From Methylomicrobium sp. (GTDB taxonomy: Bacteria > Pseudomonadota > Gammaproteobacteria > Methylococcales > Methylomonadaceae), in contig JAGXSU010000025.1 in assembly GCA_018333785.1 (NCBI GenBank), forward strand, positions 1 through 64,000: a stretch of DNA of 64,000 bases. Direction: 5' to 3'. The notes under the pieces were generated by a model. It saw only the letters and a list, made by a program, of their open reading frames with translations. It was not told the DNA's origin and made no database searches. Of the stretch, positions 5,805 through 50,182 are shown in pieces; within the stretch, counting starts at the first letter, position 1, and each line of letters opens with the position of its first letter. A program made the position numbers and the translations under genes.

Positions 5805-5886
5805 GAAATCCAATTCACTGTCGAATGGGAATTTACAGCCTAAGTATGTCGCCAGATCAGTTAACCTATCTGTTTTTGTAATCGGT

Positions 5887-30470: not shown

Positions 30471-30475
30471 CGGTT

Positions 30476-31036
30476 TTATTCCAGCAAGCCTGCCAATTTC
30501 AGCTCATTCATCGTAAACACCCTCGATGCACAGAGCAATTGACTCTGAGCGCTCCTAAAGGCATTGTGCGGCTGATTAACCCATGTCAATTCTTCGCTGG
30601 TTGTCGATTTCACGATTTCATCCAAGTATCCCTCAATGCTTGGATCGTAAATTGTCCACAGGCCACTACGTTTGATCATGAGCGTCAAACCAAGGCACTG
30701 AACCAATTCGGCCGAAACTCGGGTGATAAATGCTTTTTGTTCAGTCAGGTCGTTGTTATCTCTTGAGATAGATTTTTCAGCCTCCGCAAAGCCAGCGTCG
30801 AGACAATTAACCAACAAACTTTCACCGCCTTTCCTATGGTCTGGCCAATACAATGTCAACAATGAGGTTAATCGCTGGGAAGCTTCCCGAAGATTAGGCC
30901 ATCTCGCAAATAATTCCTGAGAGCTGGGATAGCGCTTCGTTGCCCTGCAGGCCTTCTTCATTTCAATCGAAGCGGATTCAAGCGGATGTGGTAAAGGTTT
31001 TTTCAAAAAAATTATTTCGGCTGACTGATCATGCAT
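30476..31036 (-). CDS. Hypothetical protein in transfer operon
   Basis: A 186-residue soluble protein that I do not recognise. The ATG at 31036 has AGGA upstream; the frame stays open to 31162 but that region is inside traD. Mainly helical, with the motif SSQELFARWPNLREASQRL and no signal peptide or membrane segment. It overlaps the end of traD by position only within the preceding open frame and sits between traD and the DUF4400 gene, so a role in transfer or coupling is plausible but unproven. Confidence 0.65.
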   Translation of the reverse strand: MHDQSAEIIFLKKPLPHPLESASIEMKKACRATKRYPSSQELFARWPNLREASQRLTSLLTLYWPDHRKGGESLLVNCLDAGFAEAEKSISRDNNDLTEQKAFITRVSAELVQCLGLTLMIKRSGLWTIYDPSIEGYLDEIVKSTTSEELTWVNQPHNAFRSAQSQLLCASRVFTMNELKLAGLLE

Positions 31037-31046
31037 GTTTTTAATC

Positions 31047-35055: not shown

Positions 35056-35058
35056 TAT

Positions 35059-35760
35059 TTATCCATGAAACTTGATGTAATTGTCGATGAGATTCTGAAT
35101 ATTTCGACGCATCGATATGGGATCGATGGTGTTTCTGAACTCTATGTCTACTGTTCCATTTGTGCCGGCCGAATCCAAATGAATGGTGCCAATTCCCATC
35201 AATCTGTCTAATACGCCTTGTTGAACACCGATTGTTTTTATATCGCCAAATCGTATTTGCACTTGCGACTGCGCAATAATCCCTTTTTTAAGGATGATGC
35301 CATCATCGTCAATATACAGTTTTTCGGCAAAGTAACTGTAAATAAACCTCAGTCCATAAATGATCAGCAATACACCGCCCAATCCAAGTAAATCGCCAAC
35401 GACTTTTAAATTAAGCCAATCGGGTATCGTTTCGATGCCCAAGCAATAAAATACCCAACCCATAACCCTGTATGGGTTCAAAATTAGCAAGACTCCTAAA
35501 ATTATTTCAAAATAATTTGTTACAAATCCCCGCCAAGCTTGGCGAAACTCACGCGCTTTGAACTCATTTTCTGTTTTGCCTTTATTATTTGATTTTTTGG
35601 TGCTTGATTGAATCCGATTTGCCGTAAAGCCTAAATGGTTATCGGGCATTACGGTGTATTCATCGCCCGTTTCTCGTGACAACAATGCGCACATATCCAT
35701 CGCATCATCGAAACTTGCAAATGAATTCAGCCTTAAATTCATCGAATTTTTTTTTGACAT
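35059..35760 (-). CDS. PH-domain (bPH2/YdbS-like) membrane protein
   Basis: A 233-residue protein with two central hydrophobic segments (FEIILGVLLILNPYRVMGWV; GDLLGLGGVLLIIYGLRFI) followed by a bacterial PH domain (DDDGIILKKGIIAQSQVQIR and FGDIKTIGVQQG). ATG 35760 is preceded by CAGGAGA, so it was preferred over an in-frame 35808 that overlaps the preceding stop. It lies between two transfer genes. A membrane scaffolding role in the transfer complex is inferred. Confidence 0.75.
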   Translation of the reverse strand: MSKKNSMNLRLNSFASFDDAMDMCALLSRETGDEYTVMPDNHLGFTANRIQSSTKKSNNKGKTENEFKAREFRQAWRGFVTNYFEIILGVLLILNPYRVMGWVFYCLGIETIPDWLNLKVVGDLLGLGGVLLIIYGLRFIYSYFAEKLYIDDDGIILKKGIIAQSQVQIRFGDIKTIGVQQGVLDRLMGIGTIHLDSAGTNGTVDIEFRNTIDPISMRRNIQNLIDNYIKFHG

Positions 35761-35804
35761 TCTGGTTCTCCTGAGTGCTTGGTTCTCATTTAATTGCTCT
35801 GTAT

Positions 35805-37154
35805 TCAATTGGTTTGGTTTTGAACGCGTGAATTCGCAACCCTGACCATCGTAAAACGTGATCGCGTCTCGCCCTTATTGCTCATTTGTGCCCCAATGAC
35901 TTGAAATGGCTTGATGTATTGCATGTATTTAGATTCCACCTTCATTTTTCTTACTAAGTTGTCCCAATACATTTGATCGACGCCTAAGACGATCTTTGTG
36001 GCAACGTTTGAAAAAAAGTCTTCAGAAAAATGTGTAGGGGATTGGCTTGCGCAAATGAGTCCAAGGCCAAATTTGCGTCCTTCCTTTGCGATTGTGTTCA
36101 AGATGTTGTTCTGATCTTCACGGAAGAATAAATGGGCTTCATCAATAATCATGATGTCCCTCAACAACCCTTCTTCCTCTCGACGTACAGGACCTCTTTC
36201 GAGAGCGGATGTGAAGATTTCTTGTAGCCTGAATTCGACAAACATGCGTTTTTCATCTTCGCGCAAAGCTGTGATGTCGTAATGCCAGACCGGGTTTGAT
36301 GGATCAAACGGTGGCTGTTGATTCTTGAATATGCCGCTTGCTTTGAGGTTGTCGAATCGCTCAACAACCGATTTCAACACTTCCTTTGATTCATATTTGA
36401 TGAAGTCTTCCAGTTCCTTACCGGTTTCCAGGTTCTCTATATAGTCTTTATAGGACTTGATCGCTTTTTGGCGCAGATCCATCGCTTTCTCTAGCAAATC
36501 GCCATCGGGCTTTGCGCCAGGCGCTGAAAGCTGCTTGTTTATTTTGTACAACTTCGTTGTGATCTTGTTTAGTTCTTCCAGAGCTCTTCCTGCTTGTGTG
36601 TCACTTCCAATAATGAGCTGTTTGAGTTTTACAAATGCATATCGGCAAGCATCATCCATGGTTGGGTATCGCTTTGGGTATTTACGATCAATTCCATCAT
36701 GCAAAACCCAAGACTTGTAATTGTCAGCATAGAATCCGTTGGCTGCGTATAGATCGCTAATCAAATGCCTCATGACAGCTTCTTGCCTTGAACCGATGGG
36801 GCGGCATCCGTTGATCGTTGCAATAAAGTCTTGCACACGCTTTCTCACACCACCGAAATGACGGTCCTGGCTTACTACAAATGGATTTAGCCCGTACTCT
36901 GTGGATTCCGAGAACCTGACGGACGATGTTCCGCTTAGATCAATATCACCATGCACGTCCATGATATGAATTCGTGGCGCAGGTGAAAAACGATGCATTT
37001 GTTGAATCATGCGTCTCAAAAATGTGGTTTTCCCCATGCCTGTTTTCCCCATAACCAGCATATGGGCATTCACTAGGCAATCGAAATCGCAAAACACCGG
37101 GGACACTTGATTTTTTGACAAGAGATAATCATCTTGCCCGAGCTCTATCTTCAT
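35805..37154 (-). CDS. HerA/VirB4-like ATPase of the transfer operon
   Basis: A 449-residue DUF87-type ATPase: Walker A VMGKTGMGKTTFLRRM near residue 35, a middle helical insertion, and Walker B IMIIDEAHLFFRED with the following FGLGLICASQSPTHF motif. Genes of this type lie beside relaxase genes in several mobile elements. It is the first gene of the operon that continues with the PH-domain protein, relaxase and TraD. A 21-bp inverted repeat at 37160-37180 lies just upstream of the ATG. Confidence 0.8.
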   Translation of the reverse strand: MKIELGQDDYLLSKNQVSPVFCDFDCLVNAHMLVMGKTGMGKTTFLRRMIQQMHRFSPAPRIHIMDVHGDIDLSGTSSVRFSESTEYGLNPFVVSQDRHFGGVRKRVQDFIATINGCRPIGSRQEAVMRHLISDLYAANGFYADNYKSWVLHDGIDRKYPKRYPTMDDACRYAFVKLKQLIIGSDTQAGRALEELNKITTKLYKINKQLSAPGAKPDGDLLEKAMDLRQKAIKSYKDYIENLETGKELEDFIKYESKEVLKSVVERFDNLKASGIFKNQQPPFDPSNPVWHYDITALREDEKRMFVEFRLQEIFTSALERGPVRREEEGLLRDIMIIDEAHLFFREDQNNILNTIAKEGRKFGLGLICASQSPTHFSEDFFSNVATKIVLGVDQMYWDNLVRKMKVESKYMQYIKPFQVIGAQMSNKGETRSRFTMVRVANSRVQNQTN

Positions 37155-37159
37155 ATGGT

Positions 37160-37180
37160 CAACATCAAGAAATGATGTTG
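37160..37180. promoter_or_regulatory. Inverted repeat before the HerA-like transfer gene
   Basis: CAACATCA (37160-37167) and TGATGTTG (37173-37180) form perfect 8-bp arms around AGAAA. On the minus strand the palindrome ends 5 nt upstream of the start codon and so covers the ribosome-binding region. It may be an operator or a translation-blocking hairpin for the transfer operon. Confidence 0.6.
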
Positions 37181-37230
37181 CTATTCTAAAAATCCGTTTT
37201 TGATTGCATCGCGGTAAAAGGTGCGGTTTT

Positions 37231-38316
37231 TCAGTCTCTTTTGCTTGACCCGATAATGCCTAGCCCACAATCAAGCACCTTACCCACCTCAACGTCTCTA
37301 AAATGTTTGTAGTCGTAAAATCGTCGATTTACGTCCTCATTAATCAACAATCGAGTGCAATCACTGAGGTTTGCCTGACCAGTTAATTTGGTCATCCTTT
37401 GCTTGAATTCATTTAGACGATCATCTCCGTATGCGTTTGCCACATAGGGATGAAGCGGATTTAGATAAAACTTCGCATTCACTTTTTCTTGCTTGAGCCA
37501 TTGAACCAGTTCCTTTAATTCGCTAAAGCGGTTTTCGATCCAGGGCGGTGCATTTAATGGTTTGGCATTGATTGGAAATTGTTTACGAATAAATTCATCG
37601 TGATCTTTTTTGATTTCGCGGTCATAACGGTCGAGGTAATATCGTCCCGTTCCATCGATGTCATACCTTACCGATGGTTCACCGCGTAAAACAGTGACCA
37701 ATCGGCTAAATCCGTCTGACAGACTTGATGCGAATAAATAATCAAACAACACCCTCTGTTTACTGCTTTCATCGGCTAGCGGGTGTAGTTGGTATGAAGG
37801 GCCATACGACTTGATGTCCGTAAAGGCAATTGGCTCCAAACCATAGACAATGTTGTTTATTAGTACACCTTCACGCTTCAAGCCTTTCAGCGTAGCCAAG
37901 ATTTCATCGGGTTTTGCTGCCAGAAACGCAAGATTGTAAAAGTGTGTCCCAGGCAAACGTGATTCTATTAAAGAGGGTTCAATCATGCCCATGATTGACG
38001 ATCCCACAATAAATGCGTTCGGTAATTCTCCTTTTGGTTTTTGGTGATCGAGTGGCGATTCGTTAATTACCGAAACAATATTTTCAGCAGCCAGGGGGGA
38101 TCTTTCCCTGGCTTCCTTTACTAGATGCTCGACCTTTAAGTAGCGTTCGTTTGTTGTCGACGATGTATATCGAGCCCCAATCGAGTGCTTGCCACTGAAT
38201 ATCTGGTACGGGTTAACCACTACATTCCATGTGGGTAACGCCCATGCAACAGCTCCGGTAAAAAACAAGCTGGCTTTCCAAAATGAATCAAAACTGCCAA
38301 TAGATAAAGCTTTCAT
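37231..38316 (-). CDS. SGNH-like partner of the AlgI-type O-acyltransferase
   Basis: A 361-residue protein with an N-terminal membrane anchor (FWKASLFFTGAVAWALPTW) and a periplasmic domain. The serine motif lies in FIVGSSIMGMIEP and a D-x-x-H element in YDYKHFRDVEV, arranged as in SGNH/DltD- and AlgX/AlgJ-like proteins that transfer acetyl groups to exported polymers. The gene overlaps the MBOAT gene by 29 bp, so the two form one functional pair. The acceptor polymer is not evident. Confidence 0.75.
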   Translation of the reverse strand: MKALSIGSFDSFWKASLFFTGAVAWALPTWNVVVNPYQIFSGKHSIGARYTSSTTNERYLKVEHLVKEARERSPLAAENIVSVINESPLDHQKPKGELPNAFIVGSSIMGMIEPSLIESRLPGTHFYNLAFLAAKPDEILATLKGLKREGVLINNIVYGLEPIAFTDIKSYGPSYQLHPLADESSKQRVLFDYLFASSLSDGFSRLVTVLRGEPSVRYDIDGTGRYYLDRYDREIKKDHDEFIRKQFPINAKPLNAPPWIENRFSELKELVQWLKQEKVNAKFYLNPLHPYVANAYGDDRLNEFKQRMTKLTGQANLSDCTRLLINEDVNRRFYDYKHFRDVEVGKVLDCGLGIIGSSKRD

Positions 38317-39694
38317 GTGAACCTGACATCCAAATGCTGGTGAAAAATAAAGCTGATAAATAACCCGCTGTTTTTAACGAAGGTTGGAGCGATTGAACCT
38401 CTTTCTGTGCGTTCACATATGTCATGCATACGGATAGCAGAATTCCGATTTGAATGAACTCCAAGCCCGAAATTAGACTGGTTTGTGCGCAGCTATTACA
38501 AAGACCGGAAAGCATGCTTGGGATTGCGACACCATTGACGCCTACCATCCCTTTCCAGATTGAAATGGCATGAGCAACCGATTCGGCTCTAAACACAACC
38601 CAAGCCACCGTCACCGACAAAAACGTTAAAACGATTGCGGTGGTATCGGGCAGCCCGAATCTAGTTCGCCCCCAGATTCTGTGCATACCAATGAACAAAC
38701 CATGCAAAAGCCCCCACAAAACAAACGTCCATGCGGCGCCGTGCCAAAACCCACCAATGATCATTGTCAACCCTGCTGCCATAACCCCTTTAACAAATCC
38801 ATTCCTATTTCCGCCAAGCGGGATATACACGTAGTCACGTAGAAATCTTGATAATGTCATGTGCCACCGCTTCCAGAAGTCGGCAATGCTTTTCGCTTGG
38901 TAAGGAGAATTGAAATTTTGAGGCAGGATGATTCCGAACATTAGGCCTATCCCTATGGCCATATCGGAGTAGCCGGAGAAATCAAAGTAAATTTGCAATC
39001 CATATCCCAAAGATGCCGTCCACGACTCAAAGAACTGTAATGCCGTGTCAGTTGCAAATAACGGGTCTACTTTTTCGGCGATCCTGTCGGCAATGATGCT
39101 TTTTTTGAAAAGTCCAACTACGAACAAAAACAACCCTTGGGAAAACATCCGTGGATCAAATGCAATCCGCTCTTTGAGTTGCGGCATAACATCCGAGTAA
39201 TGAAGGATTGGCCCGGCTATAAGGTGAGGGTAAAAAGAAATGGAGAAGGCAAACCGTCTCAGGTTGAAGTCTGAGACATAGCCTTTGTAACAGTCGACTA
39301 AGTAAGCGATAACCTGAAATGTGAAAAATGAAATCCCTAGCGGCAAGACCAACTTCAACGGTTCGGCGCCAGATCCAGTCAAGTCACTCCAATTTTCAAT
39401 GAAGAAGTCTGCGTATTTGAAATATCCCAGCAAACCAATGTTATAGACCAAGCCGATGGTCAATAAGGGCTTCGATTTTGTTCTGGAAATTTGCATTCCA
39501 AGAAAAAAATTGCCAATGGCATTGCCAATCAATAACGGGACGTATCGCGTATCCCACCAACCGTAGAAATACACGGAACAAATAATGACCAGTAATTGCG
39601 CGTCATTTTCACGCTCAAGCTTTTGGAGCCCCCACCATGTTGCTATGGAAAAGGGAAGGAAGAAATAGATGAATTCTGGCGAGTTGAATAGCAT
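38288..39694 (-). CDS. AlgI-like MBOAT membrane O-acyltransferase
   Basis: A polytopic 468-residue inner-membrane acyltransferase. The N-terminus MLFNSPEFIYFFLPFSIATW and the conserved FWKRWHMTLSRFLRDYVYIP and GFWHGAAWTFVLWGLLHG (catalytic histidine in the second) match AlgI/DltB MBOAT proteins. It passes acyl groups from the cytosol to a periplasmic partner, here the downstream SGNH-like protein. CAGGAG precedes the ATG. It is cargo inside the mobile region, and a palindromic operator lies about 100 bp upstream. Confidence 0.9.
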   Translation of the reverse strand: MLFNSPEFIYFFLPFSIATWWGLQKLERENDAQLLVIICSVYFYGWWDTRYVPLLIGNAIGNFFLGMQISRTKSKPLLTIGLVYNIGLLGYFKYADFFIENWSDLTGSGAEPLKLVLPLGISFFTFQVIAYLVDCYKGYVSDFNLRRFAFSISFYPHLIAGPILHYSDVMPQLKERIAFDPRMFSQGLFLFVVGLFKKSIIADRIAEKVDPLFATDTALQFFESWTASLGYGLQIYFDFSGYSDMAIGIGLMFGIILPQNFNSPYQAKSIADFWKRWHMTLSRFLRDYVYIPLGGNRNGFVKGVMAAGLTMIIGGFWHGAAWTFVLWGLLHGLFIGMHRIWGRTRFGLPDTTAIVLTFLSVTVAWVVFRAESVAHAISIWKGMVGVNGVAIPSMLSGLCNSCAQTSLISGLEFIQIGILLSVCMTYVNAQKEVQSLQPSLKTAGYLSALFFTSIWMSGSHESFIYWQF

Positions 39695-39790
39695 GGTCGC
39701 TCCTGATTACCGGAACAACCATGCTATCCTTTGTAGAAAAATCCATCCGTGTAAAAGAGTGCTTAAAAACGTCTCTTTTGGTTGGTGGCC

Positions 39791-39807
39791 TGTCCCATTT
39801 TGGGACA
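39791..39807. promoter_or_regulatory. Palindromic operator, copy 1 (upstream of AlgI-like gene)
   Basis: TGTCCCA-TTT-TGGGACA, perfect, extendable to 9-bp arms with flanking CC and GG. Near-identical sites occur at 43549, 44491 and 44589 beside parB and parA. It also follows the stop of the lipoprotein gene by 10 bp, but no T-run follows, so it is a poor terminator. Confidence 0.65.
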
Positions 39808-39817
39808 GGCTAGAATT

Positions 39818-40438
39818 TCACACTCTATCTGGTCGGCGAGCGCGTAAAAACCTTTCTTTTTTGGTTCTTTCTTTGATCAAAATAACGCTGATAGCACTCA
39901 ACGAGCGATGCAATTTTTTATTATCCCAATTTTCTTGTATCAAGCCACTAACAGCTTTATGAGCCATTTCAAGCTCTCTATAACTCATTAAATACGGGCT
40001 CACTGGCAACAATCTGGGCTCATAGACCCTTTGAACTGATTTGTCTTTCAGGCGGGCCAGTTGTTCATTCAGACGATTTGCTCTCTCTACTTCTTGCTCA
40101 GGACTTAAGTATTTCGGATAGTAGGTTTCTCGAATGCGTTCAGTAACCAAATACCATGCACCCTCGTCGAAGTACTCTTGTTTATCCAGATAGGTAACTT
40201 TTCTGTTCTTTCTAAACCTTTTATTGGCTATCTTTTGATGGTTTTCATCAAGCGCCTGCAATTGCTCGCATTCGTTCCGCAAAAGCTCATGGCTCTTATC
40301 TTTATTGAAATCCGAGCTGTTCCCTCGCTTATCGACACATTCCTCGATAGACAAATATTCCAGGAAATCACGATCCCGGTTGATGTTGGTGCATGCCGAA
40401 ATCAGTATTGCCTGTATAAGTACCAAAGCCAGTTTCAT
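39818..40438 (-). CDS. Putative lipoprotein
   Basis: A 206-residue protein with a lipoprotein signal (KLALVLIQAILISACTN; lipobox ISAC). The body is charged and helical, without a family I recognise. ATG 40438 is preceded by AAGGGTAAA, so an in-frame start at 40471 inside the neighbouring gene was not used. It pairs with the next lipoprotein gene, which ends 1 bp upstream; both are rich in paired cysteines. Possible entry-exclusion or envelope cargo; unproven. Confidence 0.65.
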   Translation of the reverse strand: MKLALVLIQAILISACTNINRDRDFLEYLSIEECVDKRGNSSDFNKDKSHELLRNECEQLQALDENHQKIANKRFRKNRKVTYLDKQEYFDEGAWYLVTERIRETYYPKYLSPEQEVERANRLNEQLARLKDKSVQRVYEPRLLPVSPYLMSYRELEMAHKAVSGLIQENWDNKKLHRSLSAISVILIKERTKKERFLRARRPDRV

Positions 40439-40439
40439 T

Positions 40440-41024
40440 TTACCCTTGGCGTTGCTTAAGCTCGCGTCCAATTACCGATTCCAGCTCTCGGTAACGCCAT
40501 GAACTACAGAGTGTTTTATGCCCAATCGTCGAATTAGCGGCCATTAGCCCATAGAGATCAATCAGGTTTGTGTTGGAAATTTCGTTTAATCGGTTTGGCA
40601 AAATCTTCACTTTGTCGTTACGTGCCTTGATTGATTTTTGCGCATTTATTTCCGCATCTAGTCTCGTTTGGTATTTATTGTCCAGATCTTTCGATATCCG
40701 CATTTCTGGATAATTCTCATCAATGTAAAGCCCTTTTACAAATTCCCAGCAAAGTGAATTTTCCTCTAATGGGTCTTTCGAGGCATGTCTTCTGTGCTCG
40801 GAATTCCCATCAATGTTTGATTCAGAAAATTTTTGAACCATTACTATCCGGCGACATTCGTGATGGGCTTGCAAATATCCTTGTTCTCCACTGATTTTAG
40901 TTTCTGTCATTCGCTTCATTGCGCATGCATCCAGCTCTGCATTTTTTTCCAGGGCGAATCGTTGAGCTTGAGTGCATCCAGACATCCAGCCCGTCATCAT
41001 CATTAAAACAACCAATCTAACCAT
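40440..41024 (-). CDS. Putative lipoprotein
   Basis: A 194-residue protein with lipoprotein signal RLVVLMMMTGWMSGCTQ (lipobox MSGC). GGGAAAGG lies upstream of the ATG. The remaining sequence is charged and helical, with several cysteines (for example DACAMKR, HHECRR, NSLCWEF) that might form disulphides in the periplasm. No family recognised. It is upstream of and abutting a second lipoprotein gene; together they form a two-gene operon between the transfer operon and the partition genes. Confidence 0.65.
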   Translation of the reverse strand: MVRLVVLMMMTGWMSGCTQAQRFALEKNAELDACAMKRMTETKISGEQGYLQAHHECRRIVMVQKFSESNIDGNSEHRRHASKDPLEENSLCWEFVKGLYIDENYPEMRISKDLDNKYQTRLDAEINAQKSIKARNDKVKILPNRLNEISNTNLIDLYGLMAANSTIGHKTLCSSWRYRELESVIGRELKQRQG

Positions 41025-41801
41025 AACCTTTCCCGAACCCTTCTCGGCCGTTTAATTATCGAATTTACCTTGACCAAGCATCTCACACCTTTAAAACAAT
41101 GCAAGGACAGCTAGACGACTTATTTCTAAGCTTTAGTACGCTACGCCCAACGCCGAATTAACCTGAAATAATGAAAAATTTATTCAGCATTTCACTGAAA
41201 AAACTCATTTATTCACATGATTGGTGATGATTACCCTAATTATCATCACTAAGCATGAAAACCCGGCAATTCAATTTCAATGAGGTATTTTGCAGGCTAT
41301 TAGATGCACCGCATGTCGCTAAGAGCCTAATCTAAAAGGATTATTGTGCCTCCGTAGGTAAGCCCTGAGAGCGATGCACAATCAAACGTCGGCTGAGTAG
41401 TCCCAGAAAGTCGAAGGGCTAGGCAGTTTTCCAATCAGGGAAACTGCAGAACTTCCCGAGCGGGTATTGAGTCATCTGAGCGCGAGAAACGTCGACTTCT
41501 ACCGGCATAGACAGCAAGGGTCGCCGGAGGCAATCTTCTTGTCGGCGGAGGCGCGATCGATGGCCAAGGATGGTCGGAGGACATTGCCGCCGGAAGCAGG
41601 TACTCGCCGAATCTTGAAAAGAGCGCCTAAAACTGGCTTGTGTTCTCGCTAAGTTTTGGATACTCTTATTGATAAGGTAATCTAACCGAACCTGCCGCCG
41701 GGTTAAACAGTTATTGCAATTCCTGCAATTCACTTGTCGACCTCAATCATGGTTGATGCGTAATCGGTGGACATCGACCGAAATTTGATTGGAGGTTTTT
41801 C
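41025..41801. other. Long intergenic region with palindromes
   Basis: About 777 bp between divergent genes without a convincing gene. It contains GTGATGAT (41224-41231) paired with ATCATCAC (41242-41249), and GCAGTTTTCC (41423-41432) nearly paired with GGGAAACTGC (41438-41447). A GC-rich part (41500-41620) has recurring GTCGGCGGAGG/GTCGCCGGAGG motifs. A 104-codon open frame on the minus strand (41419-41733) lacks a ribosome site and homology that I recognise. Replication origin, recombination site or an RNA are possible; none is shown. Confidence 0.4.
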
Positions 41802-42542
41802 ATGGCTTCAATTCCGCTTTCGGAAATTTCTTTGAGTTCCATAAAGAAATCGTTACGGACGCAATACCCTGATGTTCGATCATCACATTTAAGTGAAGCA
41901 CTTGCTGCTTCATTACGTCGTCGCACACATGCATCGCTGCTGGCTGAATTGCCCAGTTTTGCCGTTGATCCTCCAATTGAACTGCTTGACGACACTCTGT
42001 TCGATCAACGCCTTCAAGAGCTTGGTTATCCGGCTGACCCAGAATTCAGTTTCGAATATCTAGAAAAAACGCAAGTGATCAGAACTGCCGATATGTCTGC
42101 TTGGGACATCGAGTATAAGAGTGCACGCGAAATGGCTTGGCGCAATCTAATGGTGCTAACGATCAACGCAGGAATAGAACTGAAATTATTTTCCTTGCGT
42201 CCTAATGACAATCGCTGGCTAGGGGCTGACAAGAAGGAATCCTATCTGTATGACTTTTTGTTACCGAATGGCTTGCCAGCTAAAGGCTGCGTGAGTGATG
42301 CCGGTTGGGGTGAATTATCCATACACGCCGCTGTTAACCCTAAAGAAGAATGGGTTCGGGCGGCCAATGCAGGGTTTCATGCGGGTGATGCTTTCGCCGC
42401 TAGTTGGCTGGAGCGTAAGAACGGTGCATGGCTTCAATCTTCTACTTCTATGTTCAATTGCAAAATGGCGATTTTACATACACTCGCTGAACAAATAGCA
42501 GTGCCTCTGGGATACGGTGATAGAGGCAGGGTTATCATGTAG
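41802..42542 (+). CDS. Hypothetical protein with glyoxalase-related-type N-terminus
   Basis: A 246-residue protein of unknown function, preceded by GGAGG at good spacing. Its N-terminal sequence SSHLSEALAASLRRRTHASL resembles that of the Sel1-type gene at 55391-56536 (HIYELLATAFGYNSFAVL): H-x-x-E-x-L-A followed by a conserved AL pair. Such short N-terminal helices precede many hypothetical proteins of mobile elements. The rest holds WDIEYKSAREMAWRNL and no catalytic motif I recognise. It is convergent with parB and separated from it by two stem-loops. Confidence 0.65.
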   Translation: MASIPLSEISLSSIKKSLRTQYPDVRSSHLSEALAASLRRRTHASLLAELPSFAVDPPIELLDDTLFDQRLQELGYPADPEFSFEYLEKTQVIRTADMSAWDIEYKSAREMAWRNLMVLTINAGIELKLFSLRPNDNRWLGADKKESYLYDFLLPNGLPAKGCVSDAGWGELSIHAAVNPKEEWVRAANAGFHAGDAFAASWLERKNGAWLQSSTSMFNCKMAILHTLAEQIAVPLGYGDRGRVIM

Positions 42543-42547
42543 CCATC

Positions 42548-42586
42548 AACCCTGACAGGAGCAGGGTTCCCCCGATTCGTCGGGGG
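42548..42586. terminator. Double stem-loop between convergent genes
   Basis: AACCCTG (42548-42554) pairs with CAGGGTT (42562-42568), and immediately after it CCCCCGA (42569-42575) pairs with TCGGGGG (42580-42586) around a TTCG loop. The position between the + strand gene ending at 42542 and parB ending at 42593 suggests a bidirectional terminator. No clear T-run follows. Confidence 0.6.
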
Positions 42587-42592
42587 ATCATG

Positions 42593-43531
42593 TCAATGTT
42601 TAAGCAGTTCACTGACAAATTCATGAAGCGACTTTTCCTGATCGCTACTCAGTGCGGCGCATGACAATGTCAGCGTGATCTTTTTCCCATTGTTTTTCAA
42701 CTTGCCAACTGCCTTACCTTTGGGGTCAAGAAATAACATTGGCTCAAGATTGAGTTGATTTGCGTTTGATGATTTTGACTTTTGATCATGTGATTCTGAT
42801 GTTACCATTTTTTCGATCTCGGAAGCGACTCTAATCTGAGTCAATTCGCCAGCTTCAATGAGATCAATCGCTTTAAGTGTCGCTTCACGATATTTCAGGT
42901 TTTCACCTGGTTCATTCGCAAAGAGTCTTTTGAGTTCCTCGGCCGCGGTTCGGTTGAGTAAAAAGGGTTTACTATCCAATATCGATCTCAACCAACCCGG
43001 CAGCTCCATAAACGCCAGATAACGATACAGTTCGCTGCGCGTTTTTTTCAGATAACGCGCTAACTCAGTTCGGCTGCCGAAATTTTCTTTAACACCATGA
43101 ATAGCAAGGGCCACTTCGTAATCGCTCAACCCTTCCCGATCAAGGTTCTCAGCCACTGCTATCAGTCGCATTTGCATATCGTCCGCGCATTTCACTATTG
43201 CGCTGATATGTGATTTTTTTAGAAGTTGATGCGCACGCCAACGCCTTTCGCCAGCGATAATTTGAAATCTGCTTTCATGCTTTCTTACAACGATGGGCTC
43301 AATCAATCCATGTGCATCTATGGATTCGGCAAGTTGCTCTATCTTTGTCAGATCGAACTCTCTTCTAGGTTGCCACGGATTGGGATTGATCAATTCCATT
43401 GCTACAGGCTGACTTTCCCCTTCGCTACTGGTTAAAGAAAAAATCGGATCAGAAGACATGTGCTGATCGAGATTGTTCTTTGATAAAGACTTCAATTTAT
43501 CAAGAGGAGAAGGTTTTCTGGTTTCGTTCAT
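42593..43531 (-). CDS. parB: ParB/KorB-like partition and DNA-binding protein
   Basis: Centromere-binding protein of a type I partition system, acting with ParA. 312 residues. The ParB/Spo0J N-terminal domain has NPWQPRREFDLTKIEQLAES and IIAGERRWRAHQLL; a helix-turn-helix follows (GSRTELARYLKKTRSELYRYL). The C-terminus probably dimerises. AAGGA lies upstream of the ATG. A palindrome TGTCTCA-TTT-TGGGACA sits 18 bp upstream of the start. Confidence 0.9.
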   Translation of the reverse strand: MNETRKPSPLDKLKSLSKNNLDQHMSSDPIFSLTSSEGESQPVAMELINPNPWQPRREFDLTKIEQLAESIDAHGLIEPIVVRKHESRFQIIAGERRWRAHQLLKKSHISAIVKCADDMQMRLIAVAENLDREGLSDYEVALAIHGVKENFGSRTELARYLKKTRSELYRYLAFMELPGWLRSILDSKPFLLNRTAAEELKRLFANEPGENLKYREATLKAIDLIEAGELTQIRVASEIEKMVTSESHDQKSKSSNANQLNLEPMLFLDPKGKAVGKLKNNGKKITLTLSCAALSSDQEKSLHEFVSELLKH

Positions 43532-43548
43532 TTTTAGCGATCCTTGGT

Positions 43549-43565
43549 TGTCTCATTTTGGGACA
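43549..43565. promoter_or_regulatory. Palindromic operator, copy 2 (upstream of parB)
   Basis: TGTCTCA-TTT-TGGGACA, one mismatch in the arms compared with the perfect site at 39791. It lies between parA and parB and directly before the parB ribosome site. Candidate ParB/KorB-like or other element repressor site. Confidence 0.65.
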
Positions 43566-43582
43566 GGGGAGAATATCAATTT

Positions 43583-43597
43583 GCCCCATCATGGGGC
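43583..43597. repeat. Palindrome between parA and parB
   Basis: GCCCCAT-C-ATGGGGC, perfect 7-bp arms with a single central base, between the parA stop and the parB operator. Possibly a second DNA-binding site of the partition locus; no other copy noticed. Confidence 0.5.
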
Positions 43598-43606
43598 GCA
43601 TCAGAT

Positions 43607-44446
43607 TTAGTTGATAGAGGCTTCTTGATTGCCTTGCGCAAGCCCCAACTTGTCGATCAGGTAGCGCGCTAATTCTTCAAAATCTTTGGCTACTTTCCCG
43701 TCTTTTTCCATTTTTCGTATTGGCATTCGTGCGATAGAGGCTTCGCCGACCTTGGCCCCTGCATGGATCACCATCGGCAATATGTTGCCGATTTTTTCCT
43801 GTACCGTTTCAAAAATGGCCTTGCAAGCTCGTCTTCGCTCGTCGTGTCTTGAAATCAACACACCGATATTGATCAATTCAGGATTGATGCTTTCTTTGAT
43901 CCGATTGATATACGCTGTAAGGTCAGCTACCCCATACAAAGGGTACTGACTGCTCGTTTCAATTGGCACTATGTAGTGGGTTGATGCGGCCAATGCATTG
44001 CCAGTCAGTAATCTGAGTGACGGTGGGGTGTCGATGATGATGACATCATACGCCTCGCGTAACATCCCTATACGCCGACGCATTTCCTCATATGGTCTGG
44101 GTGAATAATTTCTCAATGACTCTTCGACCGATTGATCCAATTCGAGAGATCCTGGAATCAGATGTACATTTTCAAATCCTGGGTTTGCTTCGATTTGAAT
44201 TGATTCCATAATTTCTTCAAGACTGCCACGAAACAATACGCTTGAGTTTTTATTTAATGTGGATGGGTGTGCGACACATACATGGGTACTCGCATTCGCT
44301 TGTGGATCAACGTCGATCAGAAGTACATTGAATCCTTGTGCGCCAAGTTCGGCCGCTAAATTAACGGCTAGTGTTGTTTTGGCTGAACCGCCTTTTTGAA
44401 TGGCTACGGTGATAACCGGCGCTAATCTTGTGTTTTTCTCATTCAT
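43607..44446 (-). CDS. parA: ParA-family partition ATPase
   Basis: Walker-type ATPase for segregation of the element. 279 residues from ATG 44446; the deviant Walker A KGGSAKT is at 18-24, followed by VLLIDVDPQANAST and a Walker B region VIIIDTPPSLRLLTGNAL. An open frame extends to a GTG at 44506, but that GTG lies inside the palindromic operator, so the internal ATG with upstream GAGAAA is more likely. Forms a parAB operon. Confidence 0.92.
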   Translation of the reverse strand: MNEKNTRLAPVITVAIQKGGSAKTTLAVNLAAELGAQGFNVLLIDVDPQANASTHVCVAHPSTLNKNSSVLFRGSLEEIMESIQIEANPGFENVHLIPGSLELDQSVEESLRNYSPRPYEEMRRRIGMLREAYDVIIIDTPPSLRLLTGNALAASTHYIVPIETSSQYPLYGVADLTAYINRIKESINPELINIGVLISRHDERRRACKAIFETVQEKIGNILPMVIHAGAKVGEASIARMPIRKMEKDGKVAKDFEELARYLIDKLGLAQGNQEASIN

Positions 44447-44490
44447 TATTTTTTTCTCGTTCAGTAAATTGAGTGATTTATTTGCATGTG

Positions 44491-44507
44491 TCTCATTTTG
44501 GGACACA
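44491..44507. promoter_or_regulatory. Palindromic operator, copy 3 (upstream of parA)
   Basis: TGTCTCA-TTT-TGGGACA, flanked by G and C that extend the symmetry by one pair. 45 bp upstream of the preferred parA start. Identical to copy 2. Confidence 0.65.
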
Positions 44508-44588
44508 GCGATTTCTGCGAATCACAATTCATTTTCCGCTTCTTCCAAATAATGCAACTCCTGAATAAAATCTTTTACAGGGAAAATA

Positions 44589-44605
44589 TGTCTCATTGTG
44601 GGACG
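44589..44605. promoter_or_regulatory. Palindromic operator, copy 4 (between parA and integrase)
   Basis: TGTCTCA-TTG-TGGGACG; the last base departs from the consensus. It lies 143 bp upstream of parA and 18 bp beyond the stop of the integrase gene, so it could be a distal parA site or a parS-type site. Confidence 0.55.
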
Positions 44606-44622
44606 GTTCTTTTGGATTGCCA

Positions 44623-46317
44623 CTACGAGGCCTTATCTTTATCGCTCATTCCGAGCATGGCTTTATAACGCTCATCCCGATCGGTATGGACATAAATGGA
44701 CGTTGTAGCGATGTTGCTGTGACCAAGGTTGTCTCTGACGATCGCCAACGGAACGCCGTTAGCGACTGCATGACTGCCGTGAGTATGCCGAAGCCAGTGG
44801 GTGCTGGCTCGCCTTAATTTTTCTGCCGCCAAAGGATCTGTATTGGCCACATGAGTTGCTGTTTCTTCGAAAAACCTTTTGAGTTTTTGATAAAGACCTG
44901 ACGCGCTTAATGGTGATCGATTTTCCCCTCTTAGCTTCCCAATAATGGGTGTGTCTTCCAATACATAGCCAACTGGACCAAGCTTTCTATCCCTCAGATG
45001 CGCATTGATTCCCTCCATGAGAACGGGTGACAAGGGCACCTCTCTGTATTTATTGCCTTTGCCGATGACATCAAGCCACCATTGATCGCCGTCGAAGTTA
45101 GATACTTGCTTCAGGTCGCCAATCCGTGCTTTCACAATTTCGTGAAGCCGAAGTCCCGTTTGGTAGGCAAACTTTAGAATGAACGTCGTGCGGCGGTAAT
45201 CATTTCGTTGCGATTCTGTTAACGCTGAATTGTTTGCCTGATGCTCTGCATATAAATTGATCTGTTCCCACAACACAGGAGACAGCACGCGATCTGTGCC
45301 GTTGGTTCTTCGTCCATATCCTTGTGTGCTCAGCCCGGAAAAGGGATTGCTGTCCAAATAACGTTGGCCAACTAGCCATTCGCAAAGGCCGCTTAAAATC
45401 ACTTCGGCCTGCCGAATGCTTGAGGGTTTGAGAACCCCTTTGAGTGGCCGCCATTCCTGTGACCATCTTGGAGCGGGTCTGCCAATCCACCGATCAGTGG
45501 GCTGGGGGTCGGCAAGGAACCGTCTGTATTCAGCGCAATCAGGCGTTATAATGGAAGAAAGTGCTTTCCCTTTTTCAAGGATCGCCCACAATAGAAATCT
45601 TTCGGCTTCTTTTCGATACGCGCGGTGTGTGGATGTATCTTCATCCCATAGGGATAACCACGCCATAATTGACTCGTAATCGTTTCGAGCATCAATTCTG
45701 CATCGCTCTACTGGGGCCCGGTTGCTCCCAATTTCACCTGTTAAATGAGCTGGTGGTGTGAAACGCTCCAAGGGGGCTATGCGGTTGCTCACAACAGCCA
45801 CATCAAGACATGTCGCCTTTTTAGACGAAAGATCCAACGTCATGCCTAAATCAATCTCTGACGCCGCAAAAAAATCGTGTACTGCGTCCGCGGATTGCTT
45901 ACCTAAATTGGGTACCTTTTTCCACCAACTGCCACCGTGCTGGTTGATGAACTCAGCTAGTTCGGCAAGGGTTTTTATTTTTTTGATGTTAGCTAATCGA
46001 GCTGAAATTTGCTGAGGAAGCCAGCGGTTGTAATGATCATCAGATTGAGGACTTGGATCAGGTTTCGATTTGAGCATATCAATGGATTTGAGTGCTCGAT
46101 TCGTCCAGTCCTGGCTGTATTCTCTTTCGTTGACCCATAACTTAGAATCTGCAACCAAATCAAGTTGTTGTGCTTTTCTGGCAAGTTTTTCGCGCAGTTG
46201 TTTGACTGCACGCATTACCTCATTTCGATCCGCATCGTCGAGATACAGTTCTCCCATAACATCCCATGAGACGCCTTGAATCCAGCTGCGTATCAAAGCC
46301 ATTTCTCGCGGATTCAA
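44623..46317 (-). CDS. Tyrosine recombinase with DUF3701 N-terminus
   Basis: A 564-residue integrase/resolvase. The N-terminal region includes GGSWWKKVPNLGKQSADAV, matching the DUF3701 domain found in plasmid-borne recombinases. The catalytic domain is complete: arginine in QTGLRLHEIVKARI, lysine in VIGKGNKYREVPL, HxxR in HWLRHTHGSHAVANG, histidine in LGHSNIATTSIYVH and the tyrosine in the same motif. The start is a TTG that overlaps the stop of the kfrA-like gene (TTGA); an ATG at 46302 is the alternative. Probably resolves multimers or integrates the element. Confidence 0.9.
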   Translation of the reverse strand: MNPREMALIRSWIQGVSWDVMGELYLDDADRNEVMRAVKQLREKLARKAQQLDLVADSKLWVNEREYSQDWTNRALKSIDMLKSKPDPSPQSDDHYNRWLPQQISARLANIKKIKTLAELAEFINQHGGSWWKKVPNLGKQSADAVHDFFAASEIDLGMTLDLSSKKATCLDVAVVSNRIAPLERFTPPAHLTGEIGSNRAPVERCRIDARNDYESIMAWLSLWDEDTSTHRAYRKEAERFLLWAILEKGKALSSIITPDCAEYRRFLADPQPTDRWIGRPAPRWSQEWRPLKGVLKPSSIRQAEVILSGLCEWLVGQRYLDSNPFSGLSTQGYGRRTNGTDRVLSPVLWEQINLYAEHQANNSALTESQRNDYRRTTFILKFAYQTGLRLHEIVKARIGDLKQVSNFDGDQWWLDVIGKGNKYREVPLSPVLMEGINAHLRDRKLGPVGYVLEDTPIIGKLRGENRSPLSASGLYQKLKRFFEETATHVANTDPLAAEKLRRASTHWLRHTHGSHAVANGVPLAIVRDNLGHSNIATTSIYVHTDRDERYKAMLGMSDKDKAS

Positions 46318-47243
46318 AGCGTAACCTTTTCACTTGAAGGTTTTTCGGATGGACGACGCTGTTTTTTTACCAACGCTTGCAACTTGGATGTTTTGTCTTT
46401 TTCCATACTTAAAGCTTTTTCCATGTCTACCACGTTGCCACGCAACTGATCAATTTGATCTTCCAGCTTACCCTGGCGTTCTAACTGATCGCCAACTTGG
46501 TTCATGACTTGTGTCAATCTTGCACGTAACGATTCCTGATCGAGTTTTGCTGTTTCCAACGAACGATTCAGATTGGCAATGATTCTGGCTTGCTCATTCC
46601 TGGCAGCATCTTTTTCCTCCTCGATCCGTTTCAAATGCCAGAGATGATCTCTCTCCGATTTTTCTGTCCATTCTTTAGCTTGTGCTTTGTGAGCTTTTCG
46701 CGATTCCTCTAATGCTCCTTCACTCCTTGAAAGATTTTCTCTAGTAACGCCAAGTTCCGATTCGGCTTCTTTCAAACTAAATGCTGTCTTGTTTAATTTT
46801 TCCGAGATTTCTTTATTCAAAGTAATTTGAGATGAAATCTCCTGGCTCAATTTTTCATTCTCATTTTTCCACTCATCTGTTTTTGCCTTGATTTCTTGTT
46901 CAAGGAAGTCGATGCGAGATTTCCACTCTAATTCTTTGACGGTTAACTCCCGATTCCTTTCCTCATACTCTTTTTTGGCCTCGCCAAGTGCTAACTTCCA
47001 TAATGATTCGGAGGCATCGACAATAACCGCCGGCATATTGGGATGCTCCAATTTTTTGCGATGCCTTTCGACAAAATGGAGAGTCCAATCATTCATGGCC
47101 CTCTTGATCACAGCAGGGCTATTCACATGAATGCGATCTCGGATGGCATCAATAGTCGGGAAACGTCCTTCTTCCAGGAAGACCGTATTGCAACATTCAT
47201 AGGCCAATGAGTAGGTGTCAGATCGCTTTTCCATACTGATCAC
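46314..47243 (-). CDS. KfrA-like DNA-binding coiled-coil protein
   Basis: 309 residues. The N-terminus (TYSLAYECCNTVFLEEGRFP; TIDAIRDRIHVNSPAVIKRA) fits the KfrA_N DNA-binding domain, and residues 80-300 form a very long coiled coil. KfrA-type proteins are plasmid segregation accessory factors and autorepressors. The start is a GTG overlapping the helicase stop by 4 bp, or an ATG at 47234. Part of a helicase-kfrA-integrase operon with 4-bp overlaps. Confidence 0.8.
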   Translation of the reverse strand: MISMEKRSDTYSLAYECCNTVFLEEGRFPTIDAIRDRIHVNSPAVIKRAMNDWTLHFVERHRKKLEHPNMPAVIVDASESLWKLALGEAKKEYEERNRELTVKELEWKSRIDFLEQEIKAKTDEWKNENEKLSQEISSQITLNKEISEKLNKTAFSLKEAESELGVTRENLSRSEGALEESRKAHKAQAKEWTEKSERDHLWHLKRIEEEKDAARNEQARIIANLNRSLETAKLDQESLRARLTQVMNQVGDQLERQGKLEDQIDQLRGNVVDMEKALSMEKDKTSKLQALVKKQRRPSEKPSSEKVTL

Positions 47244-48760
47244 CGTCCCATGTACATAGCCAAATCAAAATTTAATTGAAGGATTTTCTGCGCTCTTGTT
47301 GCTGCGACATACAGTATGTTCAGATCCTCTTCAATAGGTCGTAATAATTCGTATCTTTCCGGTTCGCTAATTTTCGATAAATCCGGTATTTCGCAAAGCT
47401 CAATAAAGTCATCGTCTAGCTGTATATTTGCCCATTCCAGGCCTTTCGCTTTGTGCGCTGTTGACATGACAATGGCGGCATATTCCATGGACACAGCGGC
47501 GCCTACTTTCCGTTCGATTTTGTCGATGATGTCCGGGATGCTATCTCCGTATTCTTCAGTTATCCGGCAACGCGGCTTTATCTCCGCATCTTCAACTTCT
47601 TCCGCATAAAGCTTCAGTTCTGCAGAATCATTAAAGGAGCGAATAAACGGGTCCCTAATCAAATTGAATTGACGCTTCCATAAATAGTAGATGTCCAGGA
47701 TCTGATCAAAGCGATATCCTTCACTTCCTCCCACATGCCACCAGCTGCTGCCACTATTAATAGCGCGTGCAGTTTGCGAGAAGACGCCGGCATTTGATCG
47801 ACTGATAATCGTTTTTGGCTCGCTTTCATTTATTTTTCCGAGTCTGTCATCACCTGATAAACCTTGGACTCTGATTGATTCTCCTTTCATAGCCAGGATC
47901 TTGTTGGCAACATGTGCAATGTTTTTGCCGAACCGGAAAGAACCCGTCAGATATCGATCGACGCCGCCTTGCTTAATCGCAAATCCAAGTGCATTACGAG
48001 CGCCCCGCCACCCATAGATAGCTTGGTGTGAGTCGCCAACGAATACCTTTTGCGCCGTTTGCTTGAATATGATCGACATGCTGACCGGGTTCATGTCTTG
48101 GCTTTCATCGACCAATAAATAGTCATATTCAGAAAGAACGGGGTCTGATAACTGAAAGAGTTTCAGATAGCCATCGTGCAACATCCCAACATCACGATCA
48201 TTTACATCGATCATTTTTGACCATAGTCTTTTGGCCTGGATCATGATCAATTGCTTGGTGGCGTTATCATCGATGCTGACGATCTCATTAAACACTTTGC
48301 TCAAGCGACTGTAATTCTCGTGTACGTGTTTCGCTTGGATTTCCCTGTCTGGGCTGTAGAGATACTTAATCAGAGTGTCGAATACCACGCTGGCAATAAC
48401 CATGTCATCGTTATGACTTCCGTTGTAACCTATCTCTCGATCCAGTTCCTCTCGAAGCCGTAATGCTTTCTCTACTTCGTGGGGTTTTAGCCCTCTAATC
48501 AATTTGTGTTTGTAACGTATCCCGGTATGACGGTAGGCCAGAGAATGAGATGTCATAGGCTTAACCCGAGTGCCTTTGAACTTTTGCTCGGCTTCGATTT
48601 GCACCGATTTATTGAGAACCAGGTAAAGCATTCTTTTGTGCCTTCTGGTTTTGGCAAATTCAACAAGAGTGGAAGTCTTACCGGCTCCCGCAAAAGCTCT
48701 TACGACCAGAATAGGGGATTCTGTTTCAACGATGGTTTTTTGTTCTTGCGTCAACTGCAT
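47240..48760 (-). CDS. UvrD/Rep-type superfamily 1 helicase
   Basis: A 506-residue ATP-dependent DNA helicase. Motif I is VVRAFAGAGKTSTLVEFA at about 20-37, motif II YLLVDESQDMNPV, motif III GDSHQAIYGWRGA, and the C-terminal motifs V/VI STAHKAKGLEWANI and LYVAATRAQKIL. It resembles F-box-helicase-like short SF1 proteins more than full-length UvrD. First gene of the helicase-kfrA-integrase operon. Likely plasmid replication, repair or transfer. Confidence 0.88.
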   Translation of the reverse strand: MQLTQEQKTIVETESPILVVRAFAGAGKTSTLVEFAKTRRHKRMLYLVLNKSVQIEAEQKFKGTRVKPMTSHSLAYRHTGIRYKHKLIRGLKPHEVEKALRLREELDREIGYNGSHNDDMVIASVVFDTLIKYLYSPDREIQAKHVHENYSRLSKVFNEIVSIDDNATKQLIMIQAKRLWSKMIDVNDRDVGMLHDGYLKLFQLSDPVLSEYDYLLVDESQDMNPVSMSIIFKQTAQKVFVGDSHQAIYGWRGARNALGFAIKQGGVDRYLTGSFRFGKNIAHVANKILAMKGESIRVQGLSGDDRLGKINESEPKTIISRSNAGVFSQTARAINSGSSWWHVGGSEGYRFDQILDIYYLWKRQFNLIRDPFIRSFNDSAELKLYAEEVEDAEIKPRCRITEEYGDSIPDIIDKIERKVGAAVSMEYAAIVMSTAHKAKGLEWANIQLDDDFIELCEIPDLSKISEPERYELLRPIEEDLNILYVAATRAQKILQLNFDLAMYMGR

Positions 48761-49183: not shown

Positions 49184-50182
49184 TTACGCCCCAATACTAG
49201 CTGCACGCTGTTTGCCGGCCAAATAGAAACCTTTGACGTTCGAATATATACTGCTATCAGGTACAATAATCTCTCTACCAAGAACCTTTTCAAAAATCCC
49301 TTGATAGCATTTTGCACCGCCGCCAACTAATAAAATCACATCGATGTCATCTAATGACCCAACGCTTCTAACGACCGATTGAATTGCTGTTGTGATGTGA
49401 TCTTCCATTTTTGGAATCAAATGTGAGAAGTCATATTCAACACCTTGGATTCTGGTTTTGAATCCCTTTTGAATTCCGGCATCTACCATGCCAATATTTG
49501 AAAATGAATCTTTCCGATCAACTGCTATAAGCTGTGTTAGTTTCTCCAGTATTAGGGACATTCCACCTGGTGTGCTGCTGCTTCGCTCTTCATTCATTTT
49601 CAAACCACGGCAAGTTAACCAGTCCAATGTGTAATAGCCCACATCAAGCGTCAGCGACATAATTTCGTCGAGATTTCTATCGTCGTTATTATTCATAAAG
49701 AAATCGATAAACCCACCGACAGGCTGAGGTATTACCCAAACGTCTTTTACCGTTACGCTTTTTCCGTTTTGATATTTATGGTTTCCCATTAATAACTCAC
49801 GCATTCTTGCTTTGTCTTGTGCATAGTTATTGACGGGTAATCCAGATACCAGTAAATCAATATTTTCCTCGTTCATATAAGCCAACGCCCCTCTATACAG
49901 GGCAAGATATTGCGGCGTATCGATATAATTAGTTTGCAGGTGTGCAATTCGGTCGTCTCTGGCCGATAACGTGTCAATACTATCTTTACCTACCATGTAA
50001 ATACTTTCCCCACTTTCGACTTCGATTAAATCCCTTTTTGTCATTACGCTCGCGCCCCGATCGATACCGGTATGAGCCTTTGCTATAGAAGGAAAATGGC
50101 TACACAGCATCTCTTCGTTATCTGTCTCACCGTGGCAAATCTTCACGTTGCCATAACCCACATCGACCGCCTTAACCTTCAT
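49184..50182 (-). CDS. parM: ParM/StbA-like actin-type partition ATPase
   Basis: Filament-forming ATPase of a type II partition system. 332 residues. Phosphate 1 VDVGYGNVKI begins at residue 6, phosphate 2 LTLDVGYYTLDWL and the adenosine motif ILLVGGGAKCYQGIF are all visible. Followed by a ParR-like gene and preceded by a degenerate repeat array at 50224-50456. ParM homologues also occur in PRTRC cassettes (protein D), and a ThiF-type PRTRC gene lies at 61937-62686, so that alternative origin exists. Confidence 0.88.
   Translation of the reverse strand: MKVKAVDVGYGNVKICHGETDNEEMLCSHFPSIAKAHTGIDRGASVMTKRDLIEVESGESIYMVGKDSIDTLSARDDRIAHLQTNYIDTPQYLALYRGALAYMNEENIDLLVSGLPVNNYAQDKARMRELLMGNHKYQNGKSVTVKDVWVIPQPVGGFIDFFMNNNDDRNLDEIMSLTLDVGYYTLDWLTCRGLKMNEERSSSTPGGMSLILEKLTQLIAVDRKDSFSNIGMVDAGIQKGFKTRIQGVEYDFSHLIPKMEDHITTAIQSVVRSVGSLDDIDVILLVGGGAKCYQGIFEKVLGREIIVPDSSIYSNVKGFYLAGKQRAASIGA

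Follow-up and report, generated by a model that had tools for sequence, protein, structure and literature searches.

Palindromes around the parAB genes of an integrated element in Methylomicrobium as probable parS sites of the element's own ParB

In a stretch of 64,000 nucleotides from Methylomicrobium sp. (assembly GCA_018333785.1, contig JAGXSU010000025.1, positions 1 to 64,000; this whole stretch is referred to as the window), an integrated element carries the adjacent genes parA and parB, and copies of one TGT...ACA palindrome lie before, between and at some distance from them. The question that this locus raises is which protein reads these palindromes. The original prediction listed four copies and proposed that they tie the partition genes to cargo, either through one regulator (ParB/KorB-like) or as a set of parS-like sites. 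We consider it highly probable that the palindromes are specific binding sites (parS) of the element's own clamp-type ParB, which would belong to a family of plasmids and integrative conjugative elements (ICE) with sites of mostly 17 base pairs (bp). The predicted sites and the gene pair that they surround are located as follows.

39791..39807, unstranded: predicted ParB site, TGTCCCATTTTGGGACA, with perfect arms, 96 bp upstream of the ATG (39694) of the AlgI-like gene
42593..43531, minus strand: parB, 312 aa, with ParB_N and the GERR motif; recognition helix 165-176 (T164-R165-S166)
43549..43565, unstranded: predicted ParB site, TGTCTCATTTTGGGACA, one arm mismatch, 17 bp before the parB ATG
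43582..43598, unstranded: predicted ParB site, the fifth and diverged, TGCCCCATCATGGGGCG, inner arms still pair-matching
43607..44446, minus strand: parA, a short Walker ATPase with an AAA_31 match that begins near the N terminus
44489..44505, unstranded: predicted ParB site, TGTCTCATTTTGGGACA, one arm mismatch, downstream of the putative parA promoter and 42 bp before the likely parA ATG (44446)
44529..44557, minus strand: putative parA promoter, with TTGCAT invariant in six aligned sequences, 17 bp, and a weak -10
44589..44605, unstranded: predicted ParB site, TGTCTCATTGTGGGACG, weaker, exactly 100 bp from the 44489 site, between parA and the integrase stop

A scan of the window allowing up to 3 mismatches returned 5 matches (one of them the reverse reading of the 39791 site) against a mean of 0.49, and none of 100 shuffles reached 5. 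Many random copies in the genome, which would speak against dedicated sites, were looked for, and the exact motif proved to be confined to a few places: in 5.01 Mb (201 contigs), TGTCYCANNNTGGGACA occurs only at 39791, 43549, 44489 and C199:16027. At up to 2 mismatches, there are 20 forward matches compared to 12 for the reversed control, so that weak matches mean little. Together, the window shuffles, the genome count and the count in 237 genomes given below rule out a chance origin. The four copies listed in the original prediction are real, 17 bp long and above chance by sequence match and shuffles, and their placement near parA, parB, the integrase gene and the AlgI-like gene agrees with the gene coordinates; the starts at 39791, 43549 and 44589 are correct, the one placed at 44491 is off by two, and the diverged copy at 43582-43598 had been missed. 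This fifth copy, which shares the parA-parB gap with the 43549 site, was detected because relatives have a site there, and it aligns with CGTCCCATTCTGGGACG of a relative; the 100-bp spacing between the 44489 and 44589 sites is kept in the five relatives aligned.

Across genomes, the site goes with ParB. Among 237 genomes of the family, TGTCYCAYTNTGGGACA is present in four (G000, the window's own, and G001, G029 and G135), and these are the same four that encode the window's ParB or one 82-83% identical to it (100% in G000, 83% in G001 and in G029, 82% in G135; the next values are 74 and 73%); the reversed control pattern was found in 2 other genomes, with a single copy in each. The genomes with the next closest ParBs, G100 (74%) and G066 (73%), have their own variant, TGTTCCATNATGGAACA, with 3 sites each at up to one mismatch, in places that align with the window's sites and with three aligned positions switched together; at the same tolerance, no TGTTCCATNATGGAACA was found beyond the par locus in either genome (G066 is 75% complete). 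A second, plasmid-like ParB in the window's genome (C43, 37% identical) has its own palindromes of the TGTCGCA type, TGTCGCAAGTTGCGACA and TGTCGCAAGTTGAGACA, on both sides. As read from these sequences, each element has sites of a single specificity, which changes with the element's ParB. In another genome, G011, TGTTCCAAGTTGGGACA occurs three times (C1:3514213, 3519402 and 3524591) at exact 5,189-base steps and is probably part of a repeated unit.

We gathered 169 distinct ParBs, delineated a clade of 61 with family-profile scores of at least 270 bits (at most 178 for the rest), and counted palindromes within 2 kb of parB at the 61 clade loci and 108 outgroup loci. Palindromes of 17 bp (7-bp arms around a 3-bp centre) recur at 33 of the 61 clade loci, against 0.6 expected from shuffles, and those of 16 bp (2-bp centre) and 18 bp (4-bp centre) at 4 and 5, respectively (0.0 expected); the counts at 1- and 5-bp centres (33 and 34) largely represent the same sites under other arm limits. 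In the outgroup, 17-bp palindromes recur at 1 locus (1.0 expected) and 16-bp palindromes, the known form of chromosomal parS, at 13 (1.2 expected). Perfect TGT...ACA sites of 17, 16 and 18 bp occur at 40, 2 and 0 clade loci, respectively, and with up to one defect at 53, 6 and 10. At the 53 loci with a 17-bp site, sites lie behind parB in 45, upstream of parA in 27, at the parA-parB junction in 5 and inside parB in 3; the class is also found beside parAB in pChV1 (parA, parB, rep) and pNP7-5. Two arrays look centromere-like: behind parB at L087 of Paraburkholderia tropica (5856-7314), there are 14 TGTGTCGANTCGACACA-type palindromes, 10 of them perfect-armed, at a spacing of 53-149 bp, and G027 has 5 copies within 334 bp, with none found elsewhere in that genome. 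At L270-L273, L213 and L083, the sites are of 16 instead of 17 bp, showing that spacer length switches within the family.

The variable bases of the half-site covary with residues of the ParB recognition helix and its edge. The covariation set consisted of 52 loci (the 8 without a 17-bp site, as well as L086, were left out), or 44 after thinning at 80% identity. For base 4, the best ParB column is residue 166, which explains 94% of the entropy (z score of 15, with the next column at 9.4, in 44 ParBs): Glu goes with A in 24 of 24 cases, Ser with C in 9 of 9, Lys with G in 2 of 2, Gln with C in 2 of 2, Val with T in 1 of 1, Ala with C in 1 of 1, and Thr with C in 4 of 5. For base 5, the best column is residue 164 (72% of the entropy, z score of 9.9). 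These two residues flank Arg165, which is invariant in A1 and A5, is the first residue of the recognition helix according to the structure prediction (mean predicted local distance difference test score, pLDDT, of 82.8) and lines up with SRS of Caulobacter ParB in the alignment. According to excerpts of PMC7383237, R173 of Caulobacter ParB is a specificity residue, and Arg165 appears to be its equivalent. A tree from which ParB residues 153-177 had been excluded shows 8 changes of base 4 and 10 of residue 166; twice, in distinct sister pairs, a Glu/Gln difference is matched by A versus C, and Lys is paired with G in two separate lineages. The association of the site with ParB and the residue-base covariation are established by computation, and both halves of the proposal of one ParB/KorB-like regulator or a parS-like set fit, the sites following ParB and covarying with its recognition helix.

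A prediction rule was fixed in writing before the sites of 12 unseen plasmids, picked for diversity among the 50 matches listed, were viewed. For base 4, the predictions were right for 9 of the 10 callable plasmids, with one half-match (L272, one matching arm), and for base 5, 6 of 6 callable predictions were right; a Moraxella ParB with Lys166 goes with TGTG, as predicted. No call could be made for two plasmids, L271 (Asn166) and L278 (which lacks a recognisable motif); the call for L277 rests on one imperfect 16-bp site and that for L274 on sites with CGT...ACG ends. In L278 (P. aeruginosa pF051), positions 453-1138 contain TGTCCCAGTCTGGGACA and related palindromes, and the nearby ParB lacks the usual R-x-x-x-Y in the recognition helix. 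For the TGTCGCA-type palindromes of the window's genome (G000 C43:4133-6103, L006), no cross-reaction would be expected if the residue-166/164 code holds.

Several observations weigh against the assignment of the palindromes to ParB or restrict it. The ParBs are related, and the tree yields 3 independent E/A contrasts, of which on average 3.0 agree (median p of 0.25), too few for significance of the E166/A4 pair to be claimed from them. For base 5, residue 168 (z score of 9.0) is close behind residue 164, and nine of the 52 half-sites were hand-set from imperfect arms, which may affect base 5; base 4 is identical in both arms of all nine and hence unaffected. At the window's own par locus, the sites are imperfect palindromes, with T, not the predicted C, at base 5 of one arm. 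A strict 17-bp rule does not hold: 8 of the 61 clade loci have no 17-bp site even at one defect, the one-defect sites include some background (the 6 loci with 16-bp and the 10 with 18-bp sites, out of 61), and 16-bp sites are found in some members (perfect ones at 2 of 61 loci, and in 5 of the 12 unseen plasmids, L270-L273 and L277). Because of these five plasmids, we consider that spacer length evolves as well. Finally, in a consensus scan at parA, no sigma-70-like promoter passed.

Under the proposed mechanism, in which the palindromes are parS, the family's sites would be mostly odd 17-bp palindromes, TGT-N4-N-N4-ACA, on which a ParB dimer sets one recognition helix per arm; the invariant Arg165 would read the outer TGT, residue 166 would read base 4, and residue 164 would help to read base 5. 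ParB would load at the par-locus sites to form a partition complex that is moved by ParA and by which the element is retained when circular or plasmid-like. The gene pair is of the ParABS type I, with a Walker-type ParA (AAA_31, 1e-39) and a ParB (ParB_N, 2e-26) side by side, and G94 E95 R96 R97 and E128 N129 R132 of ParB are invariant in 24 sequences; we take these GERR and EN..R motifs to be the CTP-binding motifs of clamps that depend on cytidine triphosphate (CTP). By analogy with such clamps, we infer CTP-clamp loading, partition and autoregulation for the window's ParB. An operator-binding ParA is unlikely: because ParA is short and its AAA_31 match begins near the N terminus, there seems to be little room for an N-terminal operator-binding domain. 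Repression of its own operon by ParB is suggested by the two sites 100 bp apart, 44489 and 44589, which bracket the conserved TTGCAT box in the parA promoter region. Control of cargo from the AlgI-side site is possible only.

Three further genes adjoin the cluster.

38288..39694, minus strand: AlgI/DltB-like MBOAT gene, cargo behind the 39791 site; TIGR04091 below its cut-off
44623..46317, minus strand: tyrosine recombinase, Phage_integrase and DUF3701
46314..47243, minus strand: KfrA-like DNA-binding protein, KfrA_N match

Chromosomal genes give way to the integrated element at ~29.6 kb of the window. The element encodes TraD (SXT; TIGR03743, 643.6 with a cut-off of 366) and a MobH relaxase (NF041494, 236.6 with a cut-off of 200) and, by these genes, is probably an SXT/MobH-type ICE. 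Positions 29,860-47,324 are collinear with the relative G029, beside the same chromosomal flank, and contig C199 corresponds collinearly to the distant portion of this element in G001 and G029. The annotated order in the plasmid of Methylobacter sp. YRD-M1 (PRTRC protein D, DNA-binding protein, recombinase, ParA, ParB) parallels the window's ParM-like, KfrA-like, integrase, ParA and ParB genes. The ParM-type gene (actin-like, ALP_N/MreB-like; 49184-50182) near parAB would give this one element two partition-type systems. A second, large ParB-like protein (766 aa frame) is encoded at C25:73494-73919, ~31 kb from parB and at the same distance in G001, and an AAA ATPase gene (58057-61459, together with the gene that follows it) could form an accessory or defence pair with this following gene, which by eye resembles a subtilisin-type protease gene.

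The alternative that survives best concerns the sites away from the par locus, namely the AlgI-side site and the one at C199:16027, which lies in frame within a gene that is GHKL-like by eye and that, in G029 and G001, belongs to the same element at a distance of ~80-100 kb. These two sites could be products of chance or hitch-hiking and functionless, such that only the par-locus sites matter, and we give this explanation a nearly even chance. The AlgI-side site has counterparts in G001 and G029, with one base change in each, and sits at the edge of a variable cargo cassette, given that the sequence does not become similar to G001 and G135 again until 39854-39857, past the site; in G001, it is 29.6 kb from the parB-side site. 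The break in similarity (39811-39857) is shared by G001 and G135, and in G001, ~16 kb are inserted there. That the site is a general feature of the family is not supported, as in the more distant G100 and G066 the sites of their own type are restricted to the par locus. For the GHKL-like gene, 31 loci were examined (60 matches in 38 genomes listed). The synonymous conservation at its site is unexceptional, with 29 of 398 windows equally conserved, so that strong codon selection, which was tested, is not significant, and the four site-bearing copies are the closest homologues and may share one chance origin. What argues against this explanation is that the palindrome is perfect in all four copies from genomes with the window-type ParB (the G001 C1 copy is broken) and in 0 of the 27 other homologues, which have 3-6 arm mismatches. 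The peptide at the site is PVPEWD or PVPKWD versus mostly PV-x-DW in homologues. The proposed tie between partition genes and cargo is supported only in part: the AlgI-side site itself is real and recurs in G001 and G029, but as a component of a variable cassette and with no equivalent outside the par locus in G100 and G066, and any part in regulation is conjectural.

That ParB is chiefly a KorB-like global repressor of the parAB operon and of cargo such as AlgI, with partition secondary, seems rather unlikely. Sites do bracket the parA promoter region, with others upstream of AlgI and inside the distant GHKL-like gene, and excerpts of PMC11790492 present KorB of RK2 as the model ParB-family clamp that silences at a distance. 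However, the sites of G100 and G066 are confined to the par locus, the AlgI site belongs to a variable cassette, and annotation of 16 window proteins, in a scan not aimed at KorA, brought up no KorA-like partner. It is similarly unlikely, in our estimate even slightly more so, that ParB is an element-wide clamp regulator, with cargo and a coding sequence having acquired parS sites. If that were the case, the AlgI cassette would bring a site at its edge, the departure of the GHKL-like peptide would let the DNA spell a perfect site, and remote regions of the ICE could be covered by spreading ParB, silenced by it or segregated along with it; the ICE's ParB could also tether or displace the separate G001 contig C2, in which the same gene site occurs.

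It is very improbable that the sites are operators of the KfrA-like protein, which had also been named as a candidate, or core sites of the tyrosine recombinase, with ParB not the binder. Both genes adjoin the cluster, and the 44589 site is directly behind the integrase, but the class follows parAB in plasmids with other annotated neighbours (such as pChV1 and pNP7-5, whose hypothetical proteins were not searched for KfrA), and the identity of the variable bases tracks ParB residues 164 and 166, leaving the KfrA-like candidate unsupported. Transcription terminators or RNA hairpins can be dismissed almost entirely: 44589-44605 is listed as terminator-like, but the region has 2 such sites against 1.5 expected, the other palindromes are not listed, and the class varies in step with a protein at the sequence level, not only in pairing.

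If the palindromes are parS of the element's own ParB, the mechanism is of a known kind, ParABS. Within the open-access papers searched, the mostly 17-bp class, the two-residue code and the extra sites in cargo and in a gene look new. A search of the open-access literature for the half-sites TTGCGACA, TGTCGCAA, TTGGGACA and TTGCTACA with ParB/parS yielded no partition paper, although other print forms would escape it, and an earlier report of the 17-bp class cannot be excluded, the prior paper on the Bsr families being known only through excerpts of PMC5450999. The ability of plasmids and integrated elements to coexist in one cell is determined in part by the parS that each ParB reads, and relatives of the pChV1 ParB are found in 278 plasmid records at E<=1e-35. 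Two ParB residues predict two variable bases across methanotrophs, Burkholderiales, Acinetobacter, Moraxella and others, and such a code would help to forecast incompatibility and cross-talk from sequence. The family also offers a natural series on specificity change in a DNA reader and on the tolerance of a dimer to a site one base longer or shorter.

Among known systems, chromosomal ParB-parS (Spo0J/ParB, TGTTTCACGTGAAACA) shares with the window's system the ParB_N fold, GERR, an Arg-initial recognition helix and the outer TGT...ACA; unlike those 16-bp sites with a central CG, the sites described here are 17 bp long, with a non-symmetric centre and variable bases 4-8. The Bsr systems of Burkholderiales are similar in being ParABS of plasmids and secondary replicons with replicon-specific palindromic parS, but the Bsr parS is of 16 bp with a central CG (excerpts of PMC5450999), whereas the centre here is TTT or TTG. 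The pBC ParB, the one Bsr ParB compared, scores 57 bits against the family profile (at least 270 for the clade), and this distance together with site length rules out Bsr membership. With Noc-NBS, there is the best fold match (7nfu, E 5.6e-14), and TIGR04285 is the best-scoring NCBIfam model, but at 128.4 bits it is below the cut-off of 315, and the partner here is a plasmid-type parA. KorB of RK2/IncP, per excerpts of PMC11790492, is likewise a clamp of the ParB family whose sites lie both at its own operon and at other places on the element, and the predicted ParB model matches the fold of the KorB structures 8qa8/8qa9 (E 6.6e-11); it differs in being distant in sequence (69.7 bits), in its operator, and in that no KorA was identified among the 16 proteins scanned, without a dedicated search. 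The parABS of IncC/SGI1 has a conserved core, TTTCACATGTGAAA, in a 22-bp inverted repeat that is different from the sites here, but, according to excerpts of PMC10954446, it resembles the window's system in that parS copies occur both at the parAB promoter and dispersed across the element, and in the involvement of integrative elements.

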